Shown one piece after another: positions 828 to 10,678 of a stretch of 12,065 nucleotides of DNA (within the stretch, counting starts at the first letter, position 1; every line of letters begins with the position of its first letter). Position numbers and translations under genes: made by a program. Under the pieces are notes generated by a model that saw only the letters and a list, made by a program, of their open reading frames with translations, was not told where the DNA came from and searched no databases. Source of the stretch: Deltaproteobacteria bacterium (GTDB lineage: Bacteria; Desulfobacterota; GWC2-55-46; UBA9637). Location: the NCBI GenBank assembly GCA_016234985.1, contig JACRNK010000029.1, positions 1 to 12,065 on the forward strand, written 5' to 3'.

Positions 828-2222
828 ATGAAAATTCTCATTGTAGAAGATGAAAAGATAAAGAGGATAACATTGACGGATGCGCTTTTAAAGGAAGGTT
901 ATGATGTCCTTGCCATTGATAATCCTGTTGAGGCGCTTAACATATTCAAAGAGAGAGAGTTCGATGTTGTGATTACCGATATAAGGCTTCCGCACATGGA
1001 TGGCCTGGCCTTTTTAAAAGAGATAAAGGCATTAAAACCAGACACTACGGCTATTGTAATGACTGCATATGCTACCGTAGATACGGCTATAAAGGCAATG
1101 AAGCTTGGGGCTTATGACTACATTACAAAACCGTTTTCCTCTGAGGAATTGCTGCTCATCCTGGAAAGGCTTAAAGATTTCAGGAGGCTTGTTGAAGAAA
1201 ATATAAAACTTAAGCAAGAAATAACAGAAAGGTACAGTTTTGGCAACATAGTTGGCAAGAGCAAAAAGATGAAGGGCGTTTACGAGCTGATTGAAACCGT
1301 TGCCCCGCGGGATGCGACAGTGCTTATTATCGGAGAAAGCGGGACAGGCAAGGAACTCATTGCAAATGCCATACATTACAACAGCCCCCGCAAAGATAAG
1401 CCTTTTGTAAAATTCAGCTGTGCAGCCCTTGCCGAGAGCTTGCTGGAGAGCGAGCTTTTCGGACATGAAAAAGGCGCATTCACAGGCGCCGTTAAAGAGA
1501 GAAGGGGGCGGTTTGAGCTTGCCAATAACGGGAGCATATTTTTAGATGACATAGATGACATCCCTCTTTCCATGCAGACAAAACTATTAAGGGTTTTACA
1601 GGAAAAAGAGATAGAAAAGGTGGGCGGCACAAAGACCATTAAGGTGGATATCCGCATAATATGCGCCACCAAGGTTGACCTCTTAAAATTGGCAAAGCAG
1701 GGCAAGTTTAGAGAAGACCTTTATTACCGGTTAAACATAGTCCCTATAAACCTTCCGCCTTTGCGGGAAAGGAAAGAGGATATTCCGCTGATTGTAGAGT
1801 ATCTGCTTAATAAATACTCATCTAAAATGGGAAAAAAAACCTTTTGCCACGAAGCAATGAAGCTCTTGATAAACTATGATTGGCCCGGCAATGTCAGGGA
1901 ACTGGAAAATGTGGTAGAAAGAGTAGTAACTCTTACAAAATCAAATGATATTAGAGTTGAGGATCTTCCTGATTTTCTCATGGCATCACCTGAAAAATTA
2001 TGTGACAGACATCTAATCGATGTTATGGAAGAGGCTGCCTCATTTGAGGATATGATAAAGGATATGGAAATAAGGCTTCTTACACTGGCCATTAAAAAAG
2101 CAAGTGGAAATAAGAGCGAGGCCGCAAGGATTCTCAAAATGAAAAGAGAAACATTCAGGGACAAGGTAGAAAAACATGGCATAGTATTGGAACCGCCGCA
2201 AGCTACAAATGGAAAACCCTGA
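828..2222 (+). CDS. NtrC-family sigma-54-dependent response regulator
   Basis: Enhancer-binding transcription activator of 464 residues, full family length. Receiver domain about 1-115 with the acidic pair E7/D8, phospho-acceptor D51 (VVITDIRLP) and K101 (TKPF). AAA+ domain about 138-370 with Walker A GESGTGKE at 169-176, the sigma-54 contact loop GAFTGA at 216-221, and a Walker B read as FLDD (240-241) where most relatives have FLDE. A Fis-type helix-turn-helix fills about 425-455 (NKSEAARILKMKRETFRDK). A GGAGGGG ribosome site stands 11 nt before the ATG. The intact GAFTGA means it should open sigma-54 promoters. Two such promoters, each with a matching upstream palindrome, lie in this window (see 2252-2403 and 3610-3758), so these are its likely targets. 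That link is inference. The partner kinase is immediately upstream. Confidence 0.95.
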   Translation: MKILIVEDEKIKRITLTDALLKEGYDVLAIDNPVEALNIFKEREFDVVITDIRLPHMDGLAFLKEIKALKPDTTAIVMTAYATVDTAIKAMKLGAYDYITKPFSSEELLLILERLKDFRRLVEENIKLKQEITERYSFGNIVGKSKKMKGVYELIETVAPRDATVLIIGESGTGKELIANAIHYNSPRKDKPFVKFSCAALAESLLESELFGHEKGAFTGAVKERRGRFELANNGSIFLDDIDDIPLSMQTKLLRVLQEKEIEKVGGTKTIKVDIRIICATKVDLLKLAKQGKFREDLYYRLNIVPINLPPLRERKEDIPLIVEYLLNKYSSKMGKKTFCHEAMKLLINYDWPGNVRELENVVERVVTLTKSNDIRVEDLPDFLMASPEKLCDRHLIDVMEEAASFEDMIKDMEIRLLTLAIKKASGNKSEAARILKMKRETFRDKVEKHGIVLEPPQATNGKP

Positions 2223-2251
2223 ATACCCTTAAAGCCCCACCATCCTGCATC

Positions 2252-2290
2252 TGGCGGTATTTTTCCGCCACATCTGGCTTTTTTCCGCCA
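2252..2290. promoter_or_regulatory. Tandem putative enhancer sites (copy 1)
   Basis: Inverted repeat TGGCGG-N7-CCGCCA at 2252-2270, followed by the weaker related site TGGC-TTTTTT-CCGCCA at 2275-2290, centres about 21 bp apart. The first site is centred about 154 bp upstream of the start predicted for the sigma-54 promoter at 2389-2403. The same two-site arrangement recurs at 3610-3646. The position and dyad shape fit binding sites of a Fis-type HTH dimer such as the adjacent regulator. Read as RNA, the first site would also form a 6-bp hairpin after the regulator gene, but its T-tract lies in the loop, so it is a poor terminator. Confidence 0.65.
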
Positions 2291-2388
2291 ATCCACCGTT
2301 ACCAACCATTGAACCCTTAACCCCCATACTTACTGTATCTCCTTGATTTTGTGTCTAAAATCCTCAAATTAAATACCTTCGGCTTAAC

Positions 2389-2403
2389 TGGCACACTTGT
2401 TGC
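2389..2403 (+). promoter_or_regulatory. Sigma-54 (-24/-12) promoter of the M48 peptidase gene
   Basis: TGGCACA-CTTG-TTGC matches the RpoN consensus TGGCACG-N4-TTGC at all but one position. GG is at 2390-2391 and GC at 2402-2403, the required 12-bp phase. The predicted start is near 2415, only about 4 nt before the ATG at 2419. The mRNA would therefore be almost leaderless, or translation starts differently than assumed. Confidence 0.75.
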
Positions 2404-2418
2404 GATATAGTTAAAGAT

Positions 2419-2973
2419 ATGAAAGAGGCTGTATCAGGACATTCATATCAAAGGTATTTTAAAATCATAACCATCTTCAGTTTACTCATAGTCTTCCTTG
2501 GCTTTAAACCTGCCTTGAGTATGGATATGACAAGGGTGCAGGCCATAGCCGATAAGCTGGAAGGATTGACAGGCCGGCATGTTAAGATTGCAGTGGAAAA
2601 CTACGACAAACCGGATGCATACCTTCATCCTATGGGATATATAGTTATAACCAACGGCCTGATGAATTTTTTTGAAGATGACGCAGAGATGGCCTTTGTC
2701 ATAGGCCACGAATGGGCGCATGTTATAAAGGGGCATTATAAAGACGGGCAAGACATTTTGGGCATTTCAAAAGAAACCTCCATATCCGATAAGCTTAAAA
2801 AAGAGATGGAGGCCGATGCATATAGCCTGGATTTTATTAAAACCGCCGGTTATGAACCTTCAGCCTCTCTTAAGGTCTTAGCCGGATTACGCCAGATTAT
2901 GGGCCAAAACGGCATGGGGTATTCGTCATCATTGCAGGAAAGAATGCATGCCTTGAAGGAACTGCTGAATTGA
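2419..2973 (+). CDS. Small exported M48-family zinc metallopeptidase
   Basis: Periplasmic or membrane-associated zinc protease of 184 residues, little more than the catalytic core. An N-terminal hydrophobic segment about 14-34 (after a KIITIF start) ends at PALS and looks like a signal peptide. The zinc site is H97-E98-W-A-H101, and the third ligand is E131 in EMEADAYS, the usual M48 ExxxD context. The C-terminus SSLQERMHALKEL matches the conserved family end. BepA-type relatives carry a TPR domain, which is absent here. There is no Shine-Dalgarno before the ATG, and the sigma-54 start predicted at about 2415 leaves almost no leader; no other in-frame ATG precedes the hydrophobic segment. Control by sigma-54 suggests an envelope-quality role linked to the neighbouring two-component system (inference). 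Confidence 0.88.
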   Translation: MKEAVSGHSYQRYFKIITIFSLLIVFLGFKPALSMDMTRVQAIADKLEGLTGRHVKIAVENYDKPDAYLHPMGYIVITNGLMNFFEDDAEMAFVIGHEWAHVIKGHYKDGQDILGISKETSISDKLKKEMEADAYSLDFIKTAGYEPSASLKVLAGLRQIMGQNGMGYSSSLQERMHALKELLN

Positions 2974-2993
2974 CTTTGAATTGAAGGCAGAAA

Positions 2994-3028
2994 ATATAGA
3001 AGGGGCCTTAGGCCGGCCCCTTCTATAT
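2994..3028. terminator. Bidirectional terminator between convergent genes
   Basis: Perfect 14-bp stem (2994-3007 with 3015-3028) and a 7-nt loop, G/C-rich in its upper half. On the minus strand it ends in a TTTT run, so it is a good intrinsic terminator for the minus-strand gene ending at 3036. It probably also serves the peptidase gene ending at 2973. Confidence 0.8.
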
Positions 3029-3035
3029 CCATTGA

Positions 3036-3416
3036 TTAGAGATTAATCTTAACACCGGTAATTACATCCCCTGACTGGATAAGGGTTACATTCTTGTCTT
3101 TGGGCGTAAGACCATACGCCTCATAGGCTGCATACTCATTTACCATACGGAACCCTTCAATTCCTGTCTTTTCCGCGCATTGTCCCGAAAGGCACACTGT
3201 CCACTTAACATCGCCGGCCAGGTTAAAGCTTGTTGCCTTTTTCTCAGGACCGGCCAGACCGAGAACCTCTACGTTCACCACAACATTGCTCTGCTGGGAA
3301 TTTCCAGAAATGAATTGTCCCCTTATTTCTTTTGCCTCATTTGCAAAAGCCGATGCCGCAAACAACATCACTGCTGCCAGGGATAAAAAACCCATTGCTT
3401 TTTTCATTGTCTTCAT
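3036..3416 (-). CDS. Small exported protein of unknown function
   Basis: 126-residue protein I do not recognise. A clear signal peptide (MKTMKKAMGFLSLAAVMLFA, cleavage likely after ASAFA near residue 26) is followed by about 100 residues rich in beta-branched amino acids, suggesting a small beta-sheet domain. Two close cysteines, C75 and C80 (CLSGQC), could form a disulfide or bind a ligand; there is no CXXCH heme motif. A strong AGGAGG ribosome site stands 9 nt before the chosen ATG; the second Met (MKKAMG) is less well placed. The gene has its own promoter with a CRP/FNR-type palindrome at the activator position (3463-3503) and a terminator after the stop. It is transcribed away from the nirS operon, so a role in the same nitrogen-oxide or redox response is possible but unproven. 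Confidence 0.75.
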   Translation of the reverse strand: MKTMKKAMGFLSLAAVMLFAASAFANEAKEIRGQFISGNSQQSNVVVNVEVLGLAGPEKKATSFNLAGDVKWTVCLSGQCAEKTGIEGFRMVNEYAAYEAYGLTPKDKNVTLIQSGDVITGVKINL

Positions 3417-3462
3417 TTGATTTCACCTCCTTTCATGGCCTGTTTTTATTTTTTATGTTTAA

Positions 3463-3503
3463 ATTATAGCTTATATTAAATTTGATAATGTGACAAATGT
3501 CAC
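3463..3503 (-). promoter_or_regulatory. Activator-type promoter with CRP/FNR-superfamily site
   Basis: Minus-strand -10 hexamer TATAAT (3463-3468) with no good -35 box. The perfect 14-bp palindrome GTGAC-AAAT-GTCAC (3490-3503) is centred 40.5 bp upstream of the inferred start, the class II activator position of CRP/FNR-family regulators. The half-sites (TGTGA-N6-TCACC) resemble CRP and HcpR boxes more than the FNR/DNR TTGAT box. HcpR is known to control nitrosative-stress genes, but which family member binds here cannot be told. Confidence 0.65.
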
Positions 3504-3512
3504 CTTTTCGGT

Positions 3513-3580
3513 CTGAAGACTTCAGGCTGAAAATTTCTGTTTTTACCCCTTTTCCTTTTCATGTTTTTATCTTTTCAGCC
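3513..3580. repeat. Small inverted repeats in the gene-free region 3417-3800
   Basis: This 384-bp stretch holds no credible gene. Besides the regulatory sites listed separately, it contains CTGAAG-A-CTTCAG (3513-3525) and a 9-bp inverted repeat GGCTGAAAA (3525-3533) with TTTTCAGCC (3572-3580). These may be operators or transcript hairpins; no function can be assigned. Confidence 0.4.
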
Positions 3581-3609
3581 ATCCACCTCCTTCTTGATTG
3601 TTTTAAGTT

Positions 3610-3646
3610 TGGCGGCGCTATGCCGCCAAATGGCTATTTTACGCCG
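3610..3646. promoter_or_regulatory. Tandem putative enhancer sites (copy 2)
   Basis: TGGCGG-N7-CCGCCA at 3610-3628 (extended to a 9-bp perfect stem, 3608-3630) is followed by TGGCTATTTTACGCCG at 3631-3646, which matches the secondary site of copy 1 at 13 of 16 bases. The first site is centred about 151 bp upstream of the start predicted for the sigma-54 promoter at 3744-3758. The spacing nearly equals copy 1 (154 bp). A role as upstream activator sites for the NtrC-type regulator is inferred from this repetition. Confidence 0.68.
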
Positions 3647-3730
3647 TTTTTTAGAGGCTGCAATAATAATCACACCTTTGGATTTATGCTGCACTGCCAA
3701 GAAATATCTACATTTTTTTGTTAATTTTAC

Positions 3731-3797
3731 TTCGCAGAGGGGATGGCATGGTTGTTGCATTATAATAAAAATCAGCTACAATTATCCCCTCTGTGAA
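3731..3797. repeat. 14-bp inverted repeat bracketing the sigma-54 promoter
   Basis: Left arm 3731-3744 (TTCGCAGAGGGGAT) and right arm 3784-3797 (ATCCCCTCTGTGAA) pair at 13 of 14 positions, with a G-T at the exception. They enclose 39 bp that hold the -24/-12 promoter. Only the right arm lies downstream of the predicted start, so the pair would act as DNA (paired operator sites or cruciform) rather than as an RNA hairpin. Confidence 0.55.
3744..3758 (+). promoter_or_regulatory. Sigma-54 (-24/-12) promoter of the nirS operon
   Basis: TGGCATG-GTTG-TTGC matches the RpoN consensus, with GG at 3745-3746 and GC at 3757-3758 in correct 12-bp phase. The predicted start is near 3770, giving a leader of about 31 nt to the ATG at 3801. 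A TATAAT at 3761-3766 overlaps it but lacks a -35 partner. Confidence 0.75.
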
Positions 3798-3800
3798 AAT

Positions 3801-4175
3801 ATGGCAGGAAATTCTGCTGAAAATCGTTGTATAGAGCTTTTGCGAAAGATTCGCTGGCCCGGCGGGGTAAAATGCCCCAGATGTCATAGGGAGCATATTA
3901 TAGAGGTCGGATGCATGAGAACTTTTCCGGAACATAAACGTTATTATTGCTCAGGGTGCAGATATACCTTTTCCGATACATCAATGACCATATTCCACGG
4001 CAGCAGACTCTCTTTAAGCAAATGGTTTGACGCCATTATACTTGGGGCAAAAGGCTCATCTGCCATGGGTATTAAAAGAGAGCTGCATATTACCTATAAG
4101 GCGGCGTGGCGTATAAAGCATCTCATGGGTGAAGATTCTCTTGCTCAGGAGATAAAACAAAGGCTGTTAAAATAA
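3801..4175 (+). CDS. Zinc-ribbon/HTH protein derived from an IS1595-type transposase (no DDE domain)
   Basis: 124-residue protein matching the N-terminal part of IS1595/ISXO2-type transposases. RCIELLRKIRWPGGVKCPRC leads into a zinc ribbon with knuckles C25-x2-C28 and C50-x2-C53 (CSGC), then the family's TIFHGSRLSLSKWF segment and a helix-turn-helix-like region (SAMGIKRELHITYKAAWRIKHLM). Family transposases continue about 200 more residues with the catalytic DDE domain; here the frame stops cleanly at RLLK. No inverted repeats or target duplication of an insertion sequence were seen. It is the first gene after a sigma-54 promoter and heads the nirS run, so a domesticated DNA-binding regulator is plausible; a decayed transposase fragment is the alternative. 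There is no Shine-Dalgarno before the ATG. The frame is open further upstream, but an earlier start would precede the predicted transcription start. Confidence 0.72.
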   Translation: MAGNSAENRCIELLRKIRWPGGVKCPRCHREHIIEVGCMRTFPEHKRYYCSGCRYTFSDTSMTIFHGSRLSLSKWFDAIILGAKGSSAMGIKRELHITYKAAWRIKHLMGEDSLAQEIKQRLLK

Positions 4176-4185
4176 ATTTGAATAT

Positions 4186-4326
4186 AAAAAGGAGGTGAAA
4201 GACAGGGGATGTAAAGCTCAAACCTATAAGGTTTGAGTTGCTAACAGCCGCAGGCGTTAGCATGCGGCAACTCAAGGCATTAACCTTGAAAACAAAAAAG
4301 GAGGTTAGACAGATGTTAGCTCAATT
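4186..4326 (+). repeat. Degenerate duplication of the nirS translation-start region
   Basis: The segment from 4186 (AAAAAGGAGGTG, then AGACAG, ATGT, AGCTCAA to 4222) recurs from 4295 (AAAAAGGAGGTT, AGACAG, ATGT, AGCTCAA to 4324) with a few small indels. The downstream copy starts nirS. In the upstream copy the ATG (4209) is followed directly by TAA, giving a start-stop mini-ORF behind a good ribosome site. It looks like a local duplication whose first copy decayed or became a leader element. Confidence 0.55.
4215..4288 (+). ncRNA. Structured nirS leader with overlapping hairpins
   Basis: Three stem sets share arms. H1: CTCAAACC (4217-4224) with GGTTTGAG (4230-4237). H2: TTGAGTT (4233-4239) with AACTCAA (4269-4275), enclosing GCCGCA (4247-4252) with TGCGGC (4263-4268). 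H3: TCAAGG (4272-4277) with CCTTGA (4284-4289). H2 competes with H1 for its left arm and with H3 for its right arm. Inside H2, GCTAAC (4240-4245) is complementary to GTTAGC (4256-4261), an alternative pairing or pseudoknot. The structure ends a few bases before the nirS ribosome site. It fits a cis-acting RNA switch or attenuator, but I recognise no known riboswitch class. Confidence 0.45.
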
Positions 4327-5953
4327 AGACACAAGAGTAATGGCTGTAATTAAAAAAACGGGCTTGTCAGTAGTCTTGTCCGCTCTTATGATAATAGGAG
4401 TAGCTTACAAGGCTCAGGCAAACCCAGACTTAACGGCTGAGGAGTTGATTAAGGCAAAAGGTCTGTTTTTCAATAGATGCGCCGGTTGCCACGGAACACT
4501 TAGAAAAGGCGCTACAGGGCCGAATATCACGGATGCAAAATTAAAGGAAAAAAATTACGACACTAATATAATCAAGGCATTCATTACCAATGGAACCGGC
4601 GGCGGAATGCCGACGTGGGGAGAGTATCTCTCCGCTGATGATATAGACCTTCTGGCAAGATTTCTCCAGAACCCCCCGCCTGCCCCGCCTGAGATGAGTT
4701 TGGCCGAGATGAAAGAGAGCTGGAGGCTTATAGTGCCTGAAGCTCAAAGGCCAAAGAAGCCTGAGCACAGCAGAAACTATCAGAATTTCTTTGGCATTGT
4801 CTTAAGAGATGCAGGCAAGGTCGCCATTATTGACGGAGATACCAAAGAAATCGTCAATGTTGTTGACACAGGTTTTGCAGTTCATATACTGCGCACCTCC
4901 GCTTCAGGCAGGTATTTTTATTCCATTGGAAGAGATGGAAAGGCAACCATGATAGACCTCTGGATGAAAACGCCTGACAAGGTGGCTGAGGTCAAAACCT
5001 GTTTTGATGCAAGAAGCATTGACAGCAGTAAATATAACGGCAAAAAAGGGAACTTTCTGGATAAACTGGCAATTGTAGGATGCTATTGGCCGCCTCATTT
5101 TGTGGTTCTTGACGGCCAGACGCTGGAACCCAAGAAGGTCGTAAGCACCAGGTCTTACTCGTACGATACAAACGAATATATCCCTGAGGCGAGGGTTGCG
5201 GCTATTATTTCAGCGCATAAAGAGCCTGAATGGATAATCAATGTCAAAGAGGCGGGTTATATATGGGCAATAGACTACTCTGACCTCAAGAATCTCAAAA
5301 TTACACAGATAGAGACGGAGAGGTTTCTCCACGACGGCGGTTGGGATGCAAGCAAAAGATATATCATGATGGCAGCCAACATGAAAAACAAGATGGTGAT
5401 TGTGGACAGCGAGACCAAAAAGCAGATTGCCCAGATTGAGACAGGTCAAAAACCTCACCCTGGCAGGGGCGCTAATTGGACAGACCCGGAATTTGGTCCT
5501 GTTTCAGCCACGCCTCATCTCGGTGAAGGGCTGGTTGCGGTATACGGCAGCGACCCAAAGGGCCATCCCAAAAATGCGTGGAAGGTTGTAAGGAAGATAG
5601 AGACCCTCGGCGGCGGCGGTTTGTTTGTGAAAACACACCCAAAGGCGGAACATGTGTGGGTTGACCATACACTTAATCCTGATGACAAGATAAAGAGGAG
5701 TGTCTGCGCCTTTGAGAAAAACCACCCCAATGAGAAGCCCAAGTGCTTCCAGGTAGCTGACCACGGCAGGGTTGTGCACCTTGAATACAACAAAACAGGC
5801 ACCGAGGTGTGGGTAGCGGTGTGGGATAAGGCGGGAGAGATTATAATCTTTGATGATAAGACCTTGAAAGAAAAATCAAGGATTAAAGCAGATTGGCTTG
5901 TAACACCAACAGGCCACTTCAATGTATACAATACAATGACGGATACTTATTAA
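4313..5953 (+). CDS. nirS: Cytochrome cd1 nitrite reductase
   Basis: Periplasmic enzyme reducing nitrite to nitric oxide in denitrification; 546 residues from the ATG at 4313. That start has an AAAGGAGG site 8 nt upstream, and the frame's earlier TTG at 4238 lies in the leader. Signal peptide 1-36 (cleavage near KAQA). Heme c domain with C56-AGC-H60 and probable Met ligand M99 (GGGMPTWG). The rest is the eight-bladed d1 propeller: proximal d1 ligand H191 (GFAVHILR) and the active-site pair H340 (FLHDGGWD) and H382 (KPHPGRGAN). The C-terminus TPTGHFNVYNTMTDTY is nearly identical to the Pseudomonas/Paracoccus enzymes. Oddities: the N-terminal arm carrying the d1-capping Tyr is missing, H489 replaces a Gln known from classical NirS, and four non-heme cysteines (C230, C257, C465, C478) are present. 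The d1 maturation genes nirJ and nirF follow downstream. Confidence 0.96.
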   Translation: MLAQLDTRVMAVIKKTGLSVVLSALMIIGVAYKAQANPDLTAEELIKAKGLFFNRCAGCHGTLRKGATGPNITDAKLKEKNYDTNIIKAFITNGTGGGMPTWGEYLSADDIDLLARFLQNPPPAPPEMSLAEMKESWRLIVPEAQRPKKPEHSRNYQNFFGIVLRDAGKVAIIDGDTKEIVNVVDTGFAVHILRTSASGRYFYSIGRDGKATMIDLWMKTPDKVAEVKTCFDARSIDSSKYNGKKGNFLDKLAIVGCYWPPHFVVLDGQTLEPKKVVSTRSYSYDTNEYIPEARVAAIISAHKEPEWIINVKEAGYIWAIDYSDLKNLKITQIETERFLHDGGWDASKRYIMMAANMKNKMVIVDSETKKQIAQIETGQKPHPGRGANWTDPEFGPVSATPHLGEGLVAVYGSDPKGHPKNAWKVVRKIETLGGGGLFVKTHPKAEHVWVDHTLNPDDKIKRSVCAFEKNHPNEKPKCFQVADHGRVVHLEYNKTGTEVWVAVWDKAGEIIIFDDKTLKEKSRIKADWLVTPTGHFNVYNTMTDTY

Positions 5954-5983
5954 TACAAACGCATTTAGTAAATTGACATTATT

Positions 5984-6068
5984 CACCCTCCCCTTAATCC
6001 CCTCCCGTCAAGGGAGGGGAAACTTTAAGACTCCCTCTCCCCTTGCGGGAGAGGGTCGGGGTGAGGGG
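5984..6068. repeat. Dispersed palindromic repeat, copy A
   Basis: 85-bp G/C-rich element made of two hairpins: CCCCTCCC-GTCAA-GGGAGGGG and CCCTCTCCC-CTTGC-GGGAGAGGG, ending in GGGTGAGGGG-like sequence. It is nearly identical to the copy at 6649-6734, from which it differs by one extra A and two substitutions. It fills most of the gap between nirS and the next gene, where it could stabilise or process mRNA. The sequence type resembles REP-like elements common in environmental genomes. Confidence 0.85.
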
Positions 6069-6089
6069 TAGACAAAAAAAGGAGAAAAC

Positions 6090-6638
6090 ATGAAAAAGAT
6101 ATTTTTATCAGCATTAGCAGCAGTAATGATATTAGCAGTAATGACCGGCAGTAGTTTTGCGGCGGAAAAAAAGGGAGCAAAGGCGGCGGCTTCAGCGGAA
6201 AAGGCGCCGGCAAATTACTGGGACAAGTGGACAAAGACTATTTCTCTGGACATCTTCCCTGATTGCGGCATAAATGTTCTTGGCGCAGGCGGGGATGACG
6301 TACTCCAGCAAACCGTAGATACCTACTGCGCGGTAAAACCGGGCGGGTATATCGGTTATGTCAATCCAAAAGTGATGGATATATACAAGAAGAAGGGTAA
6401 CAAGTATCCCGATGGCAAGCTCGCTGTTCTTGTCTTTAAAAAGATCGGCGCTGCATTTACAACAGACATCGTAAACGGGCAGCCGGTTTATGATGTCGTT
6501 GCTATTGCAGACGGCAAGTCGATTGCATCAAAAGAGGCAAAGCATCCATTAAACCCGGCAACCTGCGCAACATGCCATTTAACTGCGCAGAAGGGTGTAT
6601 GCGCAAAATTGGGCTTTGTCTGCGGCAACAGGATGTAG
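6090..6638 (+). CDS. Exported monoheme c-type cytochrome, P460-like
   Basis: 182-residue secreted cytochrome. Signal peptide 1-24 (MKKIFLSALAAVMILAV..., cleavage after SSFA), an Ala/Lys linker, then a domain with a single C-terminal heme c site C159-ATC-H163. The order of features (GYIGYVNP..., YPDGKLAVLVFK about residues 106-117, and a late CXXCH) resembles the cytochrome P460/c'-beta family, in which the heme can bind or transform NO and hydroxylamine. I cannot identify the P460 Lys cross-link. Four further cysteines (C59, C80, C171, C178) may form disulfides. A GGAG site precedes the ATG. The position between nirS and the d1 genes suggests an electron donor to NirS or an NO-binding partner; both are inferences. 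Confidence 0.8.
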   Translation: MKKIFLSALAAVMILAVMTGSSFAAEKKGAKAAASAEKAPANYWDKWTKTISLDIFPDCGINVLGAGGDDVLQQTVDTYCAVKPGGYIGYVNPKVMDIYKKKGNKYPDGKLAVLVFKKIGAAFTTDIVNGQPVYDVVAIADGKSIASKEAKHPLNPATCATCHLTAQKGVCAKLGFVCGNRM

Positions 6639-6648
6639 AAAGCACTAC

Positions 6649-6734
6649 CACCCTCCCCTTAATCCCCTCCCGTCAAGGGAGGGGAAAACTTTAAGATTCC
6701 CTCTCCCCTTGCGGGAGAGGGTCAGGGTGAGGGG
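6649..6734. repeat. Dispersed palindromic repeat, copy B
   Basis: 86-bp second copy of the two-hairpin element at 5984-6068, same orientation, differing by one inserted A and two substitutions. It fills the gap between the P460-like cytochrome and the NirN-like gene and ends shortly before that gene's weak GAAGG ribosome site. Confidence 0.85.
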
Positions 6735-7093
6735 AAAAAGAAAAGAAGGCCCCCCATGAAGAAGATATTTACTCTTATTGCATTTCTAATCCTTACAGCC
6801 GGCCTTGCATGGGCTGATGACGGCAAAGGGCTTTATATGAAACACTGCGCCTCCTGCCATCATACCGAAAGATACGGCCTCAAAGCCCCGGCCTTAATAC
6901 CCGAAACCCTGAAGGCATATAAAAAGACGGCCTTGCCGCAAGCCAGATGCCGGCATTTAAAGGGCTGTTGACAGACGCCGATATTGACAAAATAATCTCT
7001 CACATAACATTGCCCCTGAATAATGTAAGATGGACAAAGGAAGATATTGTTAAAAGCAGAGAGTTTTTTGCAGAAACAAAATCTCAAAAAACA

Positions 7094-7141
7094 ATCCCCC
7101 CTGCATCCCCCCTTTACAAAAGGGGGGAAGAAAAGGGGGTT
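7094..7141. repeat. Palindromic repeat inside the NirN-like coding sequence
   Basis: CCCCCCTTT-ACA-AAAGGGGGG (7107-7127, 9-bp stem), flanked by further C- and G-runs. It is read in frame as PPASPLYKRGEEKG, the linker between the heme c and d1 domains. This is a different element from copies A and B, of a type commonly dispersed in genomes of this sort. Confidence 0.75.
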
Positions 7142-8068
7142 GATTACGAAAATATAACGCTTGTTGTTGAAAGCGGTAAAAGCGTGACTGTTATGGACGG
7201 CCAGAACTTTAAGGCGCTTGATAAGTTTCAGGTAGGCGCCATTCACGGCGGACCTAAGTTCTCTTACTCGCTCCGTTACATATATGCCCCAACAAGGGAC
7301 GGCATAATAACAAAATACGACCTTTGGACATTGAAAAAAGCGGGAAGCGTAAAGGTGGGTATAAATACGAGAAATATAGCCATATCCGATGATGATAAAT
7401 GGGTGGCTGCAGCAAACTACCTCCCCGGCAATATCGTATTTTTAACCGATGAATTAACCCCGACTTATATTTTAGAAACATCAGGCAAGATAGGCGGGAT
7501 ATACACTTTGACTTCAGAAAAAAAGTTTGTGTGTTCTTTCAGGGATATGCCTAATCTATGGCTTATAAATTATACAAAGGGCTTTGAAATAGAAAGGCTT
7601 GCCTTGCCGGAACCATTTGAAGATATATCACTAAGCCCGTTTGAGGACATCATTATAGGCTCTTCAAGAAAAGGGACAATACTCTATATTTACAGTTTAA
7701 AGGAGAAAAAGATTATAAATACCTTTGAGACAGACGGCATGCCGCACCTTGCCTCTGCCCGGTTTTTTTGTGAGGACGCATCAAAATACGCCGTTTATAT
7801 GGGTTGATACAAATACGGATGCAATCCAGATTATAGATAAGGCAACCTTGCAGGTTGTGAAAACGCTTACTCCTTCAAAGGATAAAAAGGCCATGCACAT
7901 TGAATTTACAAAGGATGGGAGATATGCGCTGGTCAGCATTTATGAGGAAGAAGGCGCGGTGGTCATCTATGACGCCTTTAAATTAGAGGAGATAAAGAGG
8001 CTGCCGTTTAAAAAACCTGCCGGCAAATATAATGCGTTGAACAAAACATATCCGAAGATACAGGCAAA

Positions 8069-8117
8069 CCCCTCACCCTCCCCTCTCCCCTTGGGGGAGA
8101 GGGCAAAGGGTGAGGGG
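8069..8117. repeat. Long palindrome at the 3' end of the NirN-like gene
   Basis: Outer 11-bp arms CCCCTCACCCT (8069-8079) and AGGGTGAGGGG (8107-8117) enclose a 10-bp stem CCCTCTCCCC / GGGGAGAGGG with a 3-nt loop. It is related to the second hairpin of copies A and B. It is translated as PSPSPLPLGERAKGEG near the C-terminus, so it extended the reading frame. Confidence 0.8.
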
Positions 8118-8139
8118 CAAGAGGCAATGGGTAAATAAA

Positions 8140-8183: not shown

Positions 8184-9449
8184 ATGCTGGGCGTTACAAA
8201 ACTTTTATGTGAAACAATAAAGACCGAGCAAGGCGCCGGCCATAAAAGACACGGGCATGGGCCTGCCCCTGCAGGCCTGCCCTCGAATGGTTCTATCGGG
8301 GGTTGCAAGCAGGGGGCATCTGCAAGACTCCTCCAGTTTGCAGAAGACAAAAGACCGGTAGTTGTCTGGAACATTACCAAGCGATGCAACCTGAAATGCA
8401 TCCACTGCTATTCTGATTCTTTGAATAAAGACTATGCCGGCGAATTAAGGACTGAAGAGGCAAAGGCTGTAATAGACGACCTTGCCGCGTTTGGCGCTCC
8501 TGTTATCATCTTCTCAGGCGGAGACCCTCTTTTAAGGGAGGATATATTTGAGATTGCCAAATATGCCGGCAGCAAAGGCATCAGGTGTGCGCTCTCCACA
8601 AACGGGGTTTTGATAGATAAAAAAACGGCGCAGGCAATCAAGGAAGCAAATTTTGCCTATGTCGGCGTGAGCATAGACGGGATTGGAGAATTCAACGACA
8701 GGTTCAGAGGCATGATTGGCGCATACAATATGGCATTGGAAGGCATAAGAAGCTGCAGAGACATCGGCGTCAGGACAGGGCTTCGCTTTACATTAAACAA
8801 GAGGACTTTGCCGCAGCTTCCAGCCATATTTGATCTGGCAGAGAGAGAGGATATTCCGAGGATATACATTTCGCACCTTGTATATTCAGGAAGGGGAAGA
8901 AAAATAAGCAAGGATGATCTGAGCCACGAGGAAACAAGGCAGACGCTTGACTTTATATTTAAAAAGGCAATGGAGTTTGATGATAAGGGTATGGAAAAAG
9001 ACGTCCTCACAGGCAATAATGACGCAGACGGCATTTATCTTTATATGAAGGTTAAGAAGGAGAATCCTGATAAGGCAGAAAGGGTTTATAAGCTTTTGAA
9101 GATGCGGGGCGGAAACAGCTCAGGCGTGGCCATAGGCTGCATTGACAACCTCGGCAATGTGCACGCAGACCAATTCTGGAGCCACTATTCGTTTGGGAAT
9201 GTAAAACAGAGGCCATTCAGCGAGATATGGACAGACAAAAAAGACCCGATTATGAGAGGGCTGAAAAATAAAAAAGAATCTGTTATGGGCAGATGCAGCC
9301 AGTGCGCATTTCTTGATATATGCGGCGGCAACTACAGGGTCAGGGCAGAGGCCATATATGGAAATGTCTGGGCAGAAGACCCTGCCTGTTATCTGACCGA
9401 CGAAGAAATAGGAGTTAAAAATCAATGCGCAGTGAAAATTGCAAAATGA
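8184..9449 (+). CDS. nirJ: Radical SAM heme d1 biosynthesis protein NirJ
   Basis: Cytoplasmic radical SAM enzyme of 421 residues, acting in heme d1 synthesis, where NirJ replaces propionates of 12,18-didecarboxysiroheme by oxo groups. The SAM [4Fe-4S] motif is C68-x3-C72-x2-C75 (CNLKCIHCY), followed by the SAM-binding SGGDP and STNG segments and a VSIDG strand. A SPASM-like C-terminal cluster region has C371-x2-C374-x5-C380 and C402 (RCSQCAFLDICGG ... PACYL). The GAGG site stands 6 nt before the chosen ATG. The first 50 residues (His/Gly/Pro-rich GHKRHGHGPAPAG) are an unusual extension before the conserved core. The C-terminal tail NQCAVKIAK runs into an A/T-rich repeat overlapping nirF. NirJ-like proteins also occur in alternative heme synthesis (AhbC/D), but the nirS and nirF neighbours favour d1. 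Confidence 0.92.
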   Translation: MLGVTKLLCETIKTEQGAGHKRHGHGPAPAGLPSNGSIGGCKQGASARLLQFAEDKRPVVVWNITKRCNLKCIHCYSDSLNKDYAGELRTEEAKAVIDDLAAFGAPVIIFSGGDPLLREDIFEIAKYAGSKGIRCALSTNGVLIDKKTAQAIKEANFAYVGVSIDGIGEFNDRFRGMIGAYNMALEGIRSCRDIGVRTGLRFTLNKRTLPQLPAIFDLAEREDIPRIYISHLVYSGRGRKISKDDLSHEETRQTLDFIFKKAMEFDDKGMEKDVLTGNNDADGIYLYMKVKKENPDKAERVYKLLKMRGGNSSGVAIGCIDNLGNVHADQFWSHYSFGNVKQRPFSEIWTDKKDPIMRGLKNKKESVMGRCSQCAFLDICGGNYRVRAEAIYGNVWAEDPACYLTDEEIGVKNQCAVKIAK

Positions 9450-10678
9450 AAAATAAAAATTTGAAAAATCTGAAATTTGCAATATGTGCGAGCCTTCTGG
9501 CATTCTGGATAATTTTCAATGCCGCAACAACCTCCCATGCAGGAGACACTGACGGCACTGCCTCTTTAATGGTTATTGTTGAAAGAGAATCCGGAAGCGT
9601 CATTGTCATAGACTCCTCAAAACATAAATTCCTCGGCAGGGTTTCCGGCCTCGGCAATCTCATACATGCAACAGTCAAATTTTCAAAAGACGCGCAATAT
9701 GCCTATGTAATAGGAAGGGACGCCAATGTAAGCAAGATAGACCTTGTCAAGCTGAAACTTATAAAAAGGGTAAAGGCCGGGGATGATTCTGTAGGCGGCG
9801 TAATGACTCAGGACGGCAAATATGTCGCGCTCAGCAACTATGTGCCGGGCGAGGTGAGAATACTTGATGCAGAGACCCTGGAAACGGTAAAACAAATCCC
9901 GGCAGAAAAAGAACTTCCTGATGGGAAAAAGATAGCAGCACGGGTTGTCGGCCTGGTGGATGCGCCGGGCAATCTTCTTATATTTTCAATGATGGATAAC
10001 GACGGGACATGGGTTGTGGATGCAGGCAAAAAGGATTTCCCTGTAATAAGGAAATTCTGGGATATAGGCGAGACCCCGTATGACGGACTCATAACGCCTG
10101 ACGGCAGATATTATATTGCCGGCCTTTTAAATTCCAACTGGGTTGGGCTTTTGGATACATGGGACATGTCAGAGATAAAAAAGATTACAACCATAAAGAC
10201 AAAAGATGACAGAGGGACAGGAGAAGATATTGTCCCGTTGTGGAAGATACCGCATCTGAAAGGGTGGGCAATTGCAGGCGGTTATGCCGTGCTTCCTGCC
10301 ATAAAAAGAGAGGTGGCTCTGGTTTACAATACAAGGGACTGGAGCATTGTAAAAGAAGTGCCTCTGGTCGGCACTGCGCTTTATACGGTTGCAGGGCCTG
10401 ACGGAAGATATGTATGGATAGACCTGGTTGGAAAAAACGGGGATACAATTCAGGTTATAGACCTTAAAACCCTTGAGGTCATAAAAACCTTTTCACCGGG
10501 CAAAGGCGCAACCCATCCGCAGTTTACGCCAAAGGGCGATGCGGTTTACATATCGTTGATGGACGAGGGAAAGGTGGTAGTTTACGACCCCCTCACCTTT
10601 GAAAAAATAACAGAATTTCCGGCAAAAAGGCCATCGGGCATATTTTCAACAGAGCGGGCGCATAAATTCGGCATGTAG
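9425..10678 (+). CDS. nirF: Heme d1 biosynthesis protein NirF
   Basis: Periplasmic d1-propeller protein required for heme d1 maturation; 417 residues. It lacks the heme c domain and CXXCH of NirS and NirN. N-terminal signal segment about 17-39 (FAICASLLAFWIIF... SHA), no clear lipobox. Propeller repeats include VIERESGSV-like VIVERESGSVIVID, H81 in NLIHATVKFS (position of the d1-interacting His of the family), YVIGRDANVSKIDL, ATHPQFTPKG and KVVVYDPLTFE. The start at 9425 has AGGAG 10 nt upstream and overlaps nirJ by 25 nt; the ATG at 9446, which overlaps the nirJ stop as ATGA, is an equally good start for the signal peptide. Translational coupling to nirJ is likely either way. It is the last gene of the run, and a terminator follows. 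Confidence 0.93.
   Translation: MRSENCKMKNKNLKNLKFAICASLLAFWIIFNAATTSHAGDTDGTASLMVIVERESGSVIVIDSSKHKFLGRVSGLGNLIHATVKFSKDAQYAYVIGRDANVSKIDLVKLKLIKRVKAGDDSVGGVMTQDGKYVALSNYVPGEVRILDAETLETVKQIPAEKELPDGKKIAARVVGLVDAPGNLLIFSMMDNDGTWVVDAGKKDFPVIRKFWDIGETPYDGLITPDGRYYIAGLLNSNWVGLLDTWDMSEIKKITTIKTKDDRGTGEDIVPLWKIPHLKGWAIAGGYAVLPAIKREVALVYNTRDWSIVKEVPLVGTALYTVAGPDGRYVWIDLVGKNGDTIQVIDLKTLEVIKTFSPGKGATHPQFTPKGDAVYISLMDEGKVVVYDPLTFEKITEFPAKRPSGIFSTERAHKFGM
9438..9483. repeat. A/T-rich inverted repeat across the nirJ/nirF junction
   Basis: ATTGCAAA (9438-9445) and TTTGCAAT (9476-9483) flank an A-rich 30-bp spacer. It covers the nirJ stop and the nirF N-terminus and could form a weak hairpin masking the second nirF start. 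Confidence 0.4.

Follow-up and report, generated by a model that had tools for sequence, protein, structure and literature searches.

A conserved pair of predicted sigma-54 promoters with tandem enhancer sites at a cytochrome cd1 nitrite reductase locus of an uncultured lineage

A two-component system and two matched control regions at a nirS locus

We analysed a stretch of 12,065 nucleotides (hereafter the window) from a Deltaproteobacteria bacterium (Desulfobacterota; contig JACRNK010000029.1 of assembly GCA_016234985.1), in which two predicted sigma-54 promoters lie beside an NtrC-type two-component system, one of them ahead of a gene cluster with nirS, the gene for cytochrome cd1 nitrite reductase. 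The window is contig C27 of this assembly (G000), which comprises 1,490,514 bases (1.49 Mb) in 281 contigs and is 62.8% complete. In order, it holds a histidine kinase gene cut by the contig end, the gene of an NtrC-type regulator, an enhancer and -24/-12 promoter, an M48 peptidase gene and a small divergent gene; there follow a second enhancer and -24/-12 promoter, znR (encoding a zinc-ribbon protein, ZnR), nirS, a putative cytochrome gene, a broken d1 gene, an AhbC/NirJ-like radical SAM gene and a d1-domain gene, past which a UvrD/PcrA helicase gene lies on the opposite strand. The sensor kinase (1-798, + strand, 5' end missing) carries HisKA and HATPase_c domains, and the response regulator (828-2222, + strand) a receiver domain, an AAA+ domain with a Walker B D-D, and both the intact GAFTGA loop and the Fis-type helix-turn-helix (HTH) that an earlier note on this DNA had ascribed to it.

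The two control regions share one layout, in which a 19-bp dyad is followed 2-4 bp downstream by a 16-bp dyad, the pair standing some 140 bp ahead of a consensus -24/-12 element. Site A, TGGCGG-N7-CCGCCA, is exact in both copies, at 2252-2270 for the M48 promoter and at 3610-3628 for the nir promoter. About two helical turns on (centre spacing 21.5 and 19.5 bp) stands the weaker site B, at 2275-2290 (TGGCTTTTTTCCGCCA, a TGGC-N8-GCCA dyad) and at 3631-3646 (TGGCTATTTTACGCCG), with 13 of 16 positions identical between the copies. The -24/-12 elements themselves are present at 2389-2403 (TGGCACACTTGTTGC, M48) and 3744-3758 (TGGCATGGTTGTTGC, nir unit), both on the + strand, and the site A centres lie 142 and 139 bp from the -12 end, in agreement with the 151-154 bp to the predicted start given earlier because the start is assumed to lie about 12 bp beyond that end.

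The earlier note had judged such a recurrence very unlikely by chance and had proposed scanning the source genome, and that scan bears it out: the exact motif occurs at two places in 1,490,514 bases (reversed control, 0), solely at the two sigma-54 promoters, rather than genome-wide without them. Within the window, a scan allowing up to 3 mismatches gave 9 matches against a shuffle mean of 3.67, a count reached by 4 of 200 shuffles; as this excess is mild, the strength of the observation rests on the two exact copies. The strict promoter pattern TGGCAY-N5-TTGC is found 20 times in the assembly versus 3 times in the reversed control (30 versus 0 in G002, 19 versus 2 in G007), and sigma-54 promoters therefore appear to be a real class in these genomes; both motif copies lie upstream of 2 of those 20 strict promoters, at near-equal distances. 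Moreover rpoN (PF04552), whose absence would have spoken against the proposal, is found above the cut-off in all 11 genomes in which we searched for it, the window's own included.

The sites and promoters are conserved within the family

We compared the window with its taxonomic family (G000-G007, G000 being its own assembly) and with a sister family (G008-G010). Site and promoter are kept, some in degenerate form, at all 11 family promoters orthologous to those of the window (5/5 M48, 6/6 nir), in line with the conservation in relatives that the earlier note had called for. At the ZnR-nirS promoters of G002, G004 and G006 an exact site A and a -24/-12 element stand at like spacing, and those of G003 and G007 have a site A with 2 mismatches; in these five relatives site A lies 129-141 bp before the -12 end, compared with 139 bp in the window. 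The tandem site is at least partly present at all five family M48 promoters (window, G002, G005, G006, G007), with site A exact in the window and G007 and carrying 2 mismatches in G002 and G006. Over the 10 scored sites the distance from the site A centre to the -12 end is 142, 139, 163, 141, 131, 141, 141, 129, 191 and 129 bp, and strict TGGC-N7-TTGC is found at 10 of the 11 orthologous promoters, the eleventh (G007, M48) reading TGTC at -24.

A loose tandem pattern gave 10 matches in 11 genomes (reversed control, 6), all at family promoters and on the right strand, and missed only the G002 M48 promoter among the 11 promoters; since the pattern was written after inspecting the family sites, this is no independent discovery and tests only the absence of other matches in these genomes. 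Likewise, the 10 family sites score 31-50 bits with a matrix built from them, versus a best of 13.3 bits in nine other-family loci. Among the six ZnR promoters, mean pairwise identity is 0.89 for the fixed bases of site A, 0.86 for the ends of site B and 1.00 for the fixed promoter bases, against 0.49-0.53 in the flanks, in genomes whose genes differ by synonymous divergence (dS) of about 0.3 to saturated; these sites and promoters were picked by motif, and a motif-blind alignment aligns the same columns. The comparison thus shows the predicted sites, promoters and their distance to be conserved in the family.

Outside the family the arrangement was not found in the other genomes searched. No tandem site was detected in G008-G010, where the nir and regulator loci score far below those of the family (four shuffled loci, 0.5-5.9). 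The full tandem was found across 395 genomes of the phylum solely in G000 (two copies) and G002 (one), in a draw that held three family members only (G000, G001, G002). Taken alone, exact site A has 13 occurrences across 22 genomes (reversed control, 4); 6 lie at family promoters, and 7 lack a strict TGGC-N7-TTGC within 300 bp. A scan of the GTDB species collection, which may omit records of the window's own genome, for site A followed after 98-128 bp by TGGCAY-N5-TTGC returned 16 stretches. Three belong to the family (L116, L124, L131); these metagenome-assembled genomes are named 'Deltaproteobacteria bacterium', and two of the three are labelled NC_groundwater. The remaining 13 stretches, in loci with a GC content of 57-68%, coincide in whole or in part with long reading frames, and in 11 of them the window proteins match nothing; L130 has a 40% match to the regulator and carries the site within the stretch that codes for a sigma-54 activator, and L126 (Pseudomonas sp. 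dw_358, an unrelated lineage) a partial regulator match of 33%. We take most of the 13 to be chance, leaving L126 and L130 aside. In L126, an exact intergenic site A, a second TGGC-N8-GCCA dyad (TGGCGAAAAACCGCCA) downstream of it and TGGCAC-N5-TTGC were observed at 5027-5176; this may reflect chance, hairpins or independent use of the motif.

The neighbouring regulator is the probable activator

On the basis of these comparisons, the two promoters make up what is, as far as sequence can tell, a conserved, lineage-specific sigma-54 regulon, and its cognate regulator is probably the NtrC-type protein encoded beside it. Orthologues of the regulator (81-91% identity) are found in six other family genomes, G005 included, and in four of the seven genomes having it (G000, G003, G005, G007) the first gene met upstream of an enhancer is that of the regulator. 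G001, rated 100% complete, jointly lacks nirS, ZnR, M48, a close regulator orthologue (best 48%) and the sites. The kinase orthologue in L061 has 454 amino acids and, by eye, a hydrophobic N-terminal half.

The Walker B motif of the regulator reads LDD, not LDE, as it does in 10 of 10 orthologues aligned. In PspF, the E108D substitution reduced ATPase activity, according to an excerpt of the published account (PMC4132715), and we asked whether D-D might indicate that the activator is weakened. This idea was rejected, as LDD is common to 112 of the 120 nearest regulators listed (P0014-P0133; 8000 scored), with 7 having Glu and 1 not read; Asp in place of the catalytic Glu is therefore better regarded as a subfamily mark.

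Competing explanations

The palindromes could conceivably be transcription terminators or a dispersed hairpin repeat instead of enhancers, as they can form hairpins, one starts 30 bp past the regulator stop, a scan flagged 3607-3631 as terminator-like, near-matches of the GGGCGGGCTGYGCCCGCC type are scattered over the assembly, and one exact copy in G007 lies in a stretch rich in hairpins that has no strict -24/-12 element (L056). On the other hand, the gene that lies closest upstream of the nir copy is transcribed divergently and M48 stops 637 bp short of that copy, the site remains with the promoter where the upstream gene differs among relatives, and conservation extends to the second dyad and the distance. 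We regard this explanation as highly improbable and rejected it because the exact copies in the assembly stand at the two sigma-54 promoters only and the site tracks the promoter across genomes. Separately, a dispersed hairpin, GGGCGGGCTGYGCCCGCCA, and its variants occur in G000 (e.g. C42:10721, C43:854, C98:4488, C108:9473) as site A look-alikes with one mismatch.

If enhancers and sigma-54 promoters are real, their activator might still be a different, unlinked enhancer-binding protein, the adjacent pair having other targets. Several findings weigh against assigning the sites to the neighbouring regulator and favour such an arrangement. The regulators of the sister family (G008-G010; 63-71% identity) keep a near-identical HTH, and nirS is present there, yet the tandem site was not found, which would mean either that the targets were rewired or that a different activator binds; in three of six nirS genomes (G002, G004, G006) the kinase-regulator pair and nirS are on separate contigs; and a first look at G000 gave 46 regulator-like candidates, so that another activator could be the binder. 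Against the regulon as a whole, the tandem site varies at the M48 promoters, with site B poor in G002 and, in G005, site B intact, the left half of site A lost and its right half remaining, and the M48 arm is absent from two of the six nirS genomes (G003, G004). Against an unlinked activator stand the position of the regulator next to an enhancer in four of seven family genomes, the joint absence of regulator, sites and targets from G001, and the case of G005, which has the regulator, M48 and part of the site, yet no nirS that our search could find. We consider it unlikely that an unlinked protein fills this role. It is also improbable that nirS is driven mainly by an FNR/HcpR-type regulator or by a promoter between znR and nirS, with the sigma-54 promoter serving znR alone, a proposal to which the 137-bp gap (leader) between the two genes, which could hold a further promoter, a CRP/FNR-like dyad in the nir intergenic region (3489-3504, TGTGA-N6-TCACC) and its variants in relatives lend some weight, as do weak FNR-like dyads with 1-2 mismatches, carried by several relatives in the nir intergenic region or inside the ZnR gene. 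By contrast, the CRP/FNR-like dyad lies on the divergent gene's side in the four genomes where that gene was found, ZnR and nirS stand side by side and point the same way in six of six genomes, and a scan of 2200-4400 for sigma-70-like promoters did not exceed shuffles (4 versus a mean of 5.8).

Control of both sigma-54 promoters by one two-component system thus appears to us the likely explanation, and the adjacent regulator quite probably acts at these sites, judging from its position and its distribution. The local kinase-activator-RpoN regulon of an M48 protease and nirS that the earlier note had put forward is upheld as regards the conserved sites and promoters and the presence of rpoN, and needs amending in that nirS comes second, behind znR, and that M48 belongs to it in only four of the six nirS genomes.

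ZnR and an inverted repeat around the nir core promoter

The first gene after the nir promoter is znR (3801-4175, + strand), which the earlier note had left out; nirS, starting at 4313, is the second. ZnR is a 124-residue zinc-ribbon protein that probably also has an HTH, and it is akin to the N-terminal domain of IS1595 transposases (34.3 bits to the IS1595 zinc-ribbon domain, cut-off 25.4). A length-limited database search returned 13 homologues of 88-145 residues at 68-89% identity, 12 of which list only PF12760 and the other none. One of them, P0001, and the regulator homologue P0028 are each listed with a longest contig of 11,087 bases, so the two may share a contig. Among 147 genomes, the window's own included, 13 have a match at E <= 1e-8: the six family genomes with nirS (68-100%), in which the match always adjoins nirS, and seven more at 35-40%, whose longer frames (177-343 residues) we take to be transposases. 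The ratio of nonsynonymous to synonymous substitution rates (dN/dS) is 0.11-0.24 in the 11 pairs, of 15, for which dS was computable; ZnR is therefore a kept protein under purifying selection, not debris. In all six genomes the adjacent znR and nirS are followed by the putative cytochrome gene. The predicted structure (mean predicted local distance difference test score 83, from a 14-row alignment) has a helix, three short strands at the cysteine region and four C-terminal helices, which we read as a zinc ribbon plus an HTH; a sequence search of the PDB with ZnR gave weak zinc-finger and similar matches only.

A 16-bp inverted repeat flanks the core nir promoter, with its left arm (3729-3744) reaching the -24 element and its right arm (3784-3799) in the predicted leader. 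It is found in six of six genomes, with 12-14 of 16 positions paired and arms 39-65 bp apart, and by eye was not seen at the M48 promoters. The exact arm consensus, CTTCRYRARGGGGAT, has 6 matches in 11 genomes, all at this locus (G002, G004, G006, G007); the left arm in the window differs from it by one mismatch, and with one mismatch it matches many other places too, mainly a recurrent CTCCATGAGGGGGAT. Among related full-length IS1595 elements at 11 loci, four have terminal repeats, none clearly like the promoter repeat by eye. Because ZnR and the repeat are constantly associated, we propose that ZnR may bind the repeat at its own promoter, and feedback by ZnR is a good hypothesis. More tentatively, and with the balance of probability leaning the other way, ZnR might be a recruited transposase N-terminal domain that blocks sigma-54 polymerase from this repeat and so exerts negative feedback on nirS, whose product nitric oxide (NO) is toxic.

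The nir genes and other features of the window

The product of nirS (4313-5953, + strand) is, by its sequence, a true NirS: 514 residues align with the solved chain 1bl9 at 577 bits, the next kind of match being 6rtd at 126 bits, and it has a heme c domain and a d1 propeller. Its two active-site histidines align with those of 1bl9. Among the 147 genomes 42 match nirS at E <= 0.001, and the close matches (80-90%) are G002, G003, G004, G006 and G007, all of the family.

Further downstream on the + strand lie a putative c-type cytochrome gene (6090-6638; CATCH by eye, no Pfam match); a gene with cytochrome c and d1 domains, broken into several frames (6756-8138), which is one open frame in G002, G004, G006 and G007 and reflects here either decay or an assembly error; an AhbC/NirJ-like radical SAM protein gene (8184-9449; below curated cut-offs); and a d1-domain protein gene (9425-10678), termed NirF-like for its domain and its place in the cluster. 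Between znR and nirS (4175-4313), six of six genomes share a Shine-Dalgarno-like AAGGAGGTGAA directly past the znR end, without a conserved open reading frame behind it; it lies about 100 nt or more before nirS, which has its own GGAGG. Repeated sequences of the CCCTCCCCTTAATCCCCTCCCGTCAAGGGAGGGG / CTCTCCCCTTGCGGGAGAGGG type were noticed by eye between nir genes (5982-6069, 6648-6736, 8070-8118), and a search of the window against Rfam gave 0 matches.

In the other unit, the short M48-type peptidase (2419-2973, + strand; HEWAH) has an N-terminal hydrophobic segment by eye. Its orthologues share 53-66% identity in G002, G005, G006 and G007; none was found in G001, G003 or G004 at E <= 1e-15, and the M48 proteins of G008-G010 are distant (31-36%). 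The M48 ATG lies 13-15 nt past the -12 end in four of five genomes (15 in the window; 10 or 26 in G006), so near that the sigma-54 transcript would be nearly leaderless. The small gene divergent from the nir unit (3036-3416, - strand) encodes a protein with a signal-like N-terminus by eye and no Pfam match. Upstream of it, the CRP/FNR/HcpR-like dyad occurs in all four genomes with that gene (window, G002, G005, G006), in variants of 1-2 mismatches, and in the window it lies, by eye, near -41 of a sigma-70-like promoter for the divergent gene.

Proposed circuit and comparison with known systems

In the circuit that we propose, the kinase (1-798) would phosphorylate the regulator (828-2222), whose dimers would bind sites A and B and assemble into a hexamer that loops to sigma-54 RNA polymerase and opens the promoter with ATP. 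Transcription would start near 2415 and 3770, the M48 promoter yielding the peptidase and the nir promoter znR, nirS and the following nir genes. With less confidence, ZnR, as first product of the nir unit, might then bind the inverted repeat at its own core promoter and limit expression. Such a circuit would offer testable control of nitrite reduction to NO that would not depend solely on FNR/DNR, in an uncultured lineage with some members from groundwater, and it supplies a concrete candidate binding motif for an uncharacterised two-component system.

The closest precedent is NrfS-NrfR (DVU0621) of Desulfovibrio, for which excerpts of four papers describe sigma-54-dependent two-component control of nrfHA (PMC6456213, PMC5701242, PMC4641369, PMC3333781). 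As there, a nitrite reductase of a delta-proteobacterium would be under sigma-54 two-component control with 16-bp sites upstream. The NrfSR target, however, is a cytochrome c nitrite reductase and not a cytochrome cd1 enzyme, the similar LurR/NrfR motif reads like GTCC-N8-AGAC in the excerpted text, and neither a zinc-ribbon gene nor a flanking repeat appears in the excerpts describing NrfSR. Here the sites precede M48 and ZnR-nirS, and 0 of the 10 window proteins scanned match an nrf family. The kind of control is therefore already known; in the open-licence literature searched, mostly not as full text, we found no description of the nirS target, the motif or the ZnR/repeat arrangement, and nirS is absent from the main text of a 2025 survey of sigma-54 regulons.

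NorR, an NtrC-family sigma-54 activator of NO defence, is NO-responsive and acts on detoxification genes according to part of PMC1274295, whereas the window regulator combines a receiver domain with a kinase encoded next to it; a search of the two control regions of the window for a NorR-like pattern, allowing up to 2 mismatches, found nothing. DNR/NnrR/FNR control shares the target gene, and FNR-like DNR boxes, CTTGATnnnnATCAAG, are placed upstream of nirS and other denitrification genes in the same excerpt (PMC1274295). In the window, TTGAT-N4-ATCAA has no match with up to 2 mismatches ahead of M48 or ZnR-nirS, though relatives have forms with 1-2 mismatches. The kinase and regulator also resemble AtoSC / ZraSR-type systems, which are among their best NCBIfam resemblances (kinase, cut here, 210.8 versus a cut-off of 646; regulator 489.3 versus 714), and as both fall below the curated cut-offs we do not file them as members. 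Finally, IS1595 transposases share the zinc-ribbon domain of ZnR, which differs from them in consisting of a zinc ribbon and a helical part without a catalytic domain; if ZnR does bind the repeat, a transposase-type DNA-binding domain would have turned into the operon's own regulator at a sigma-54 promoter.

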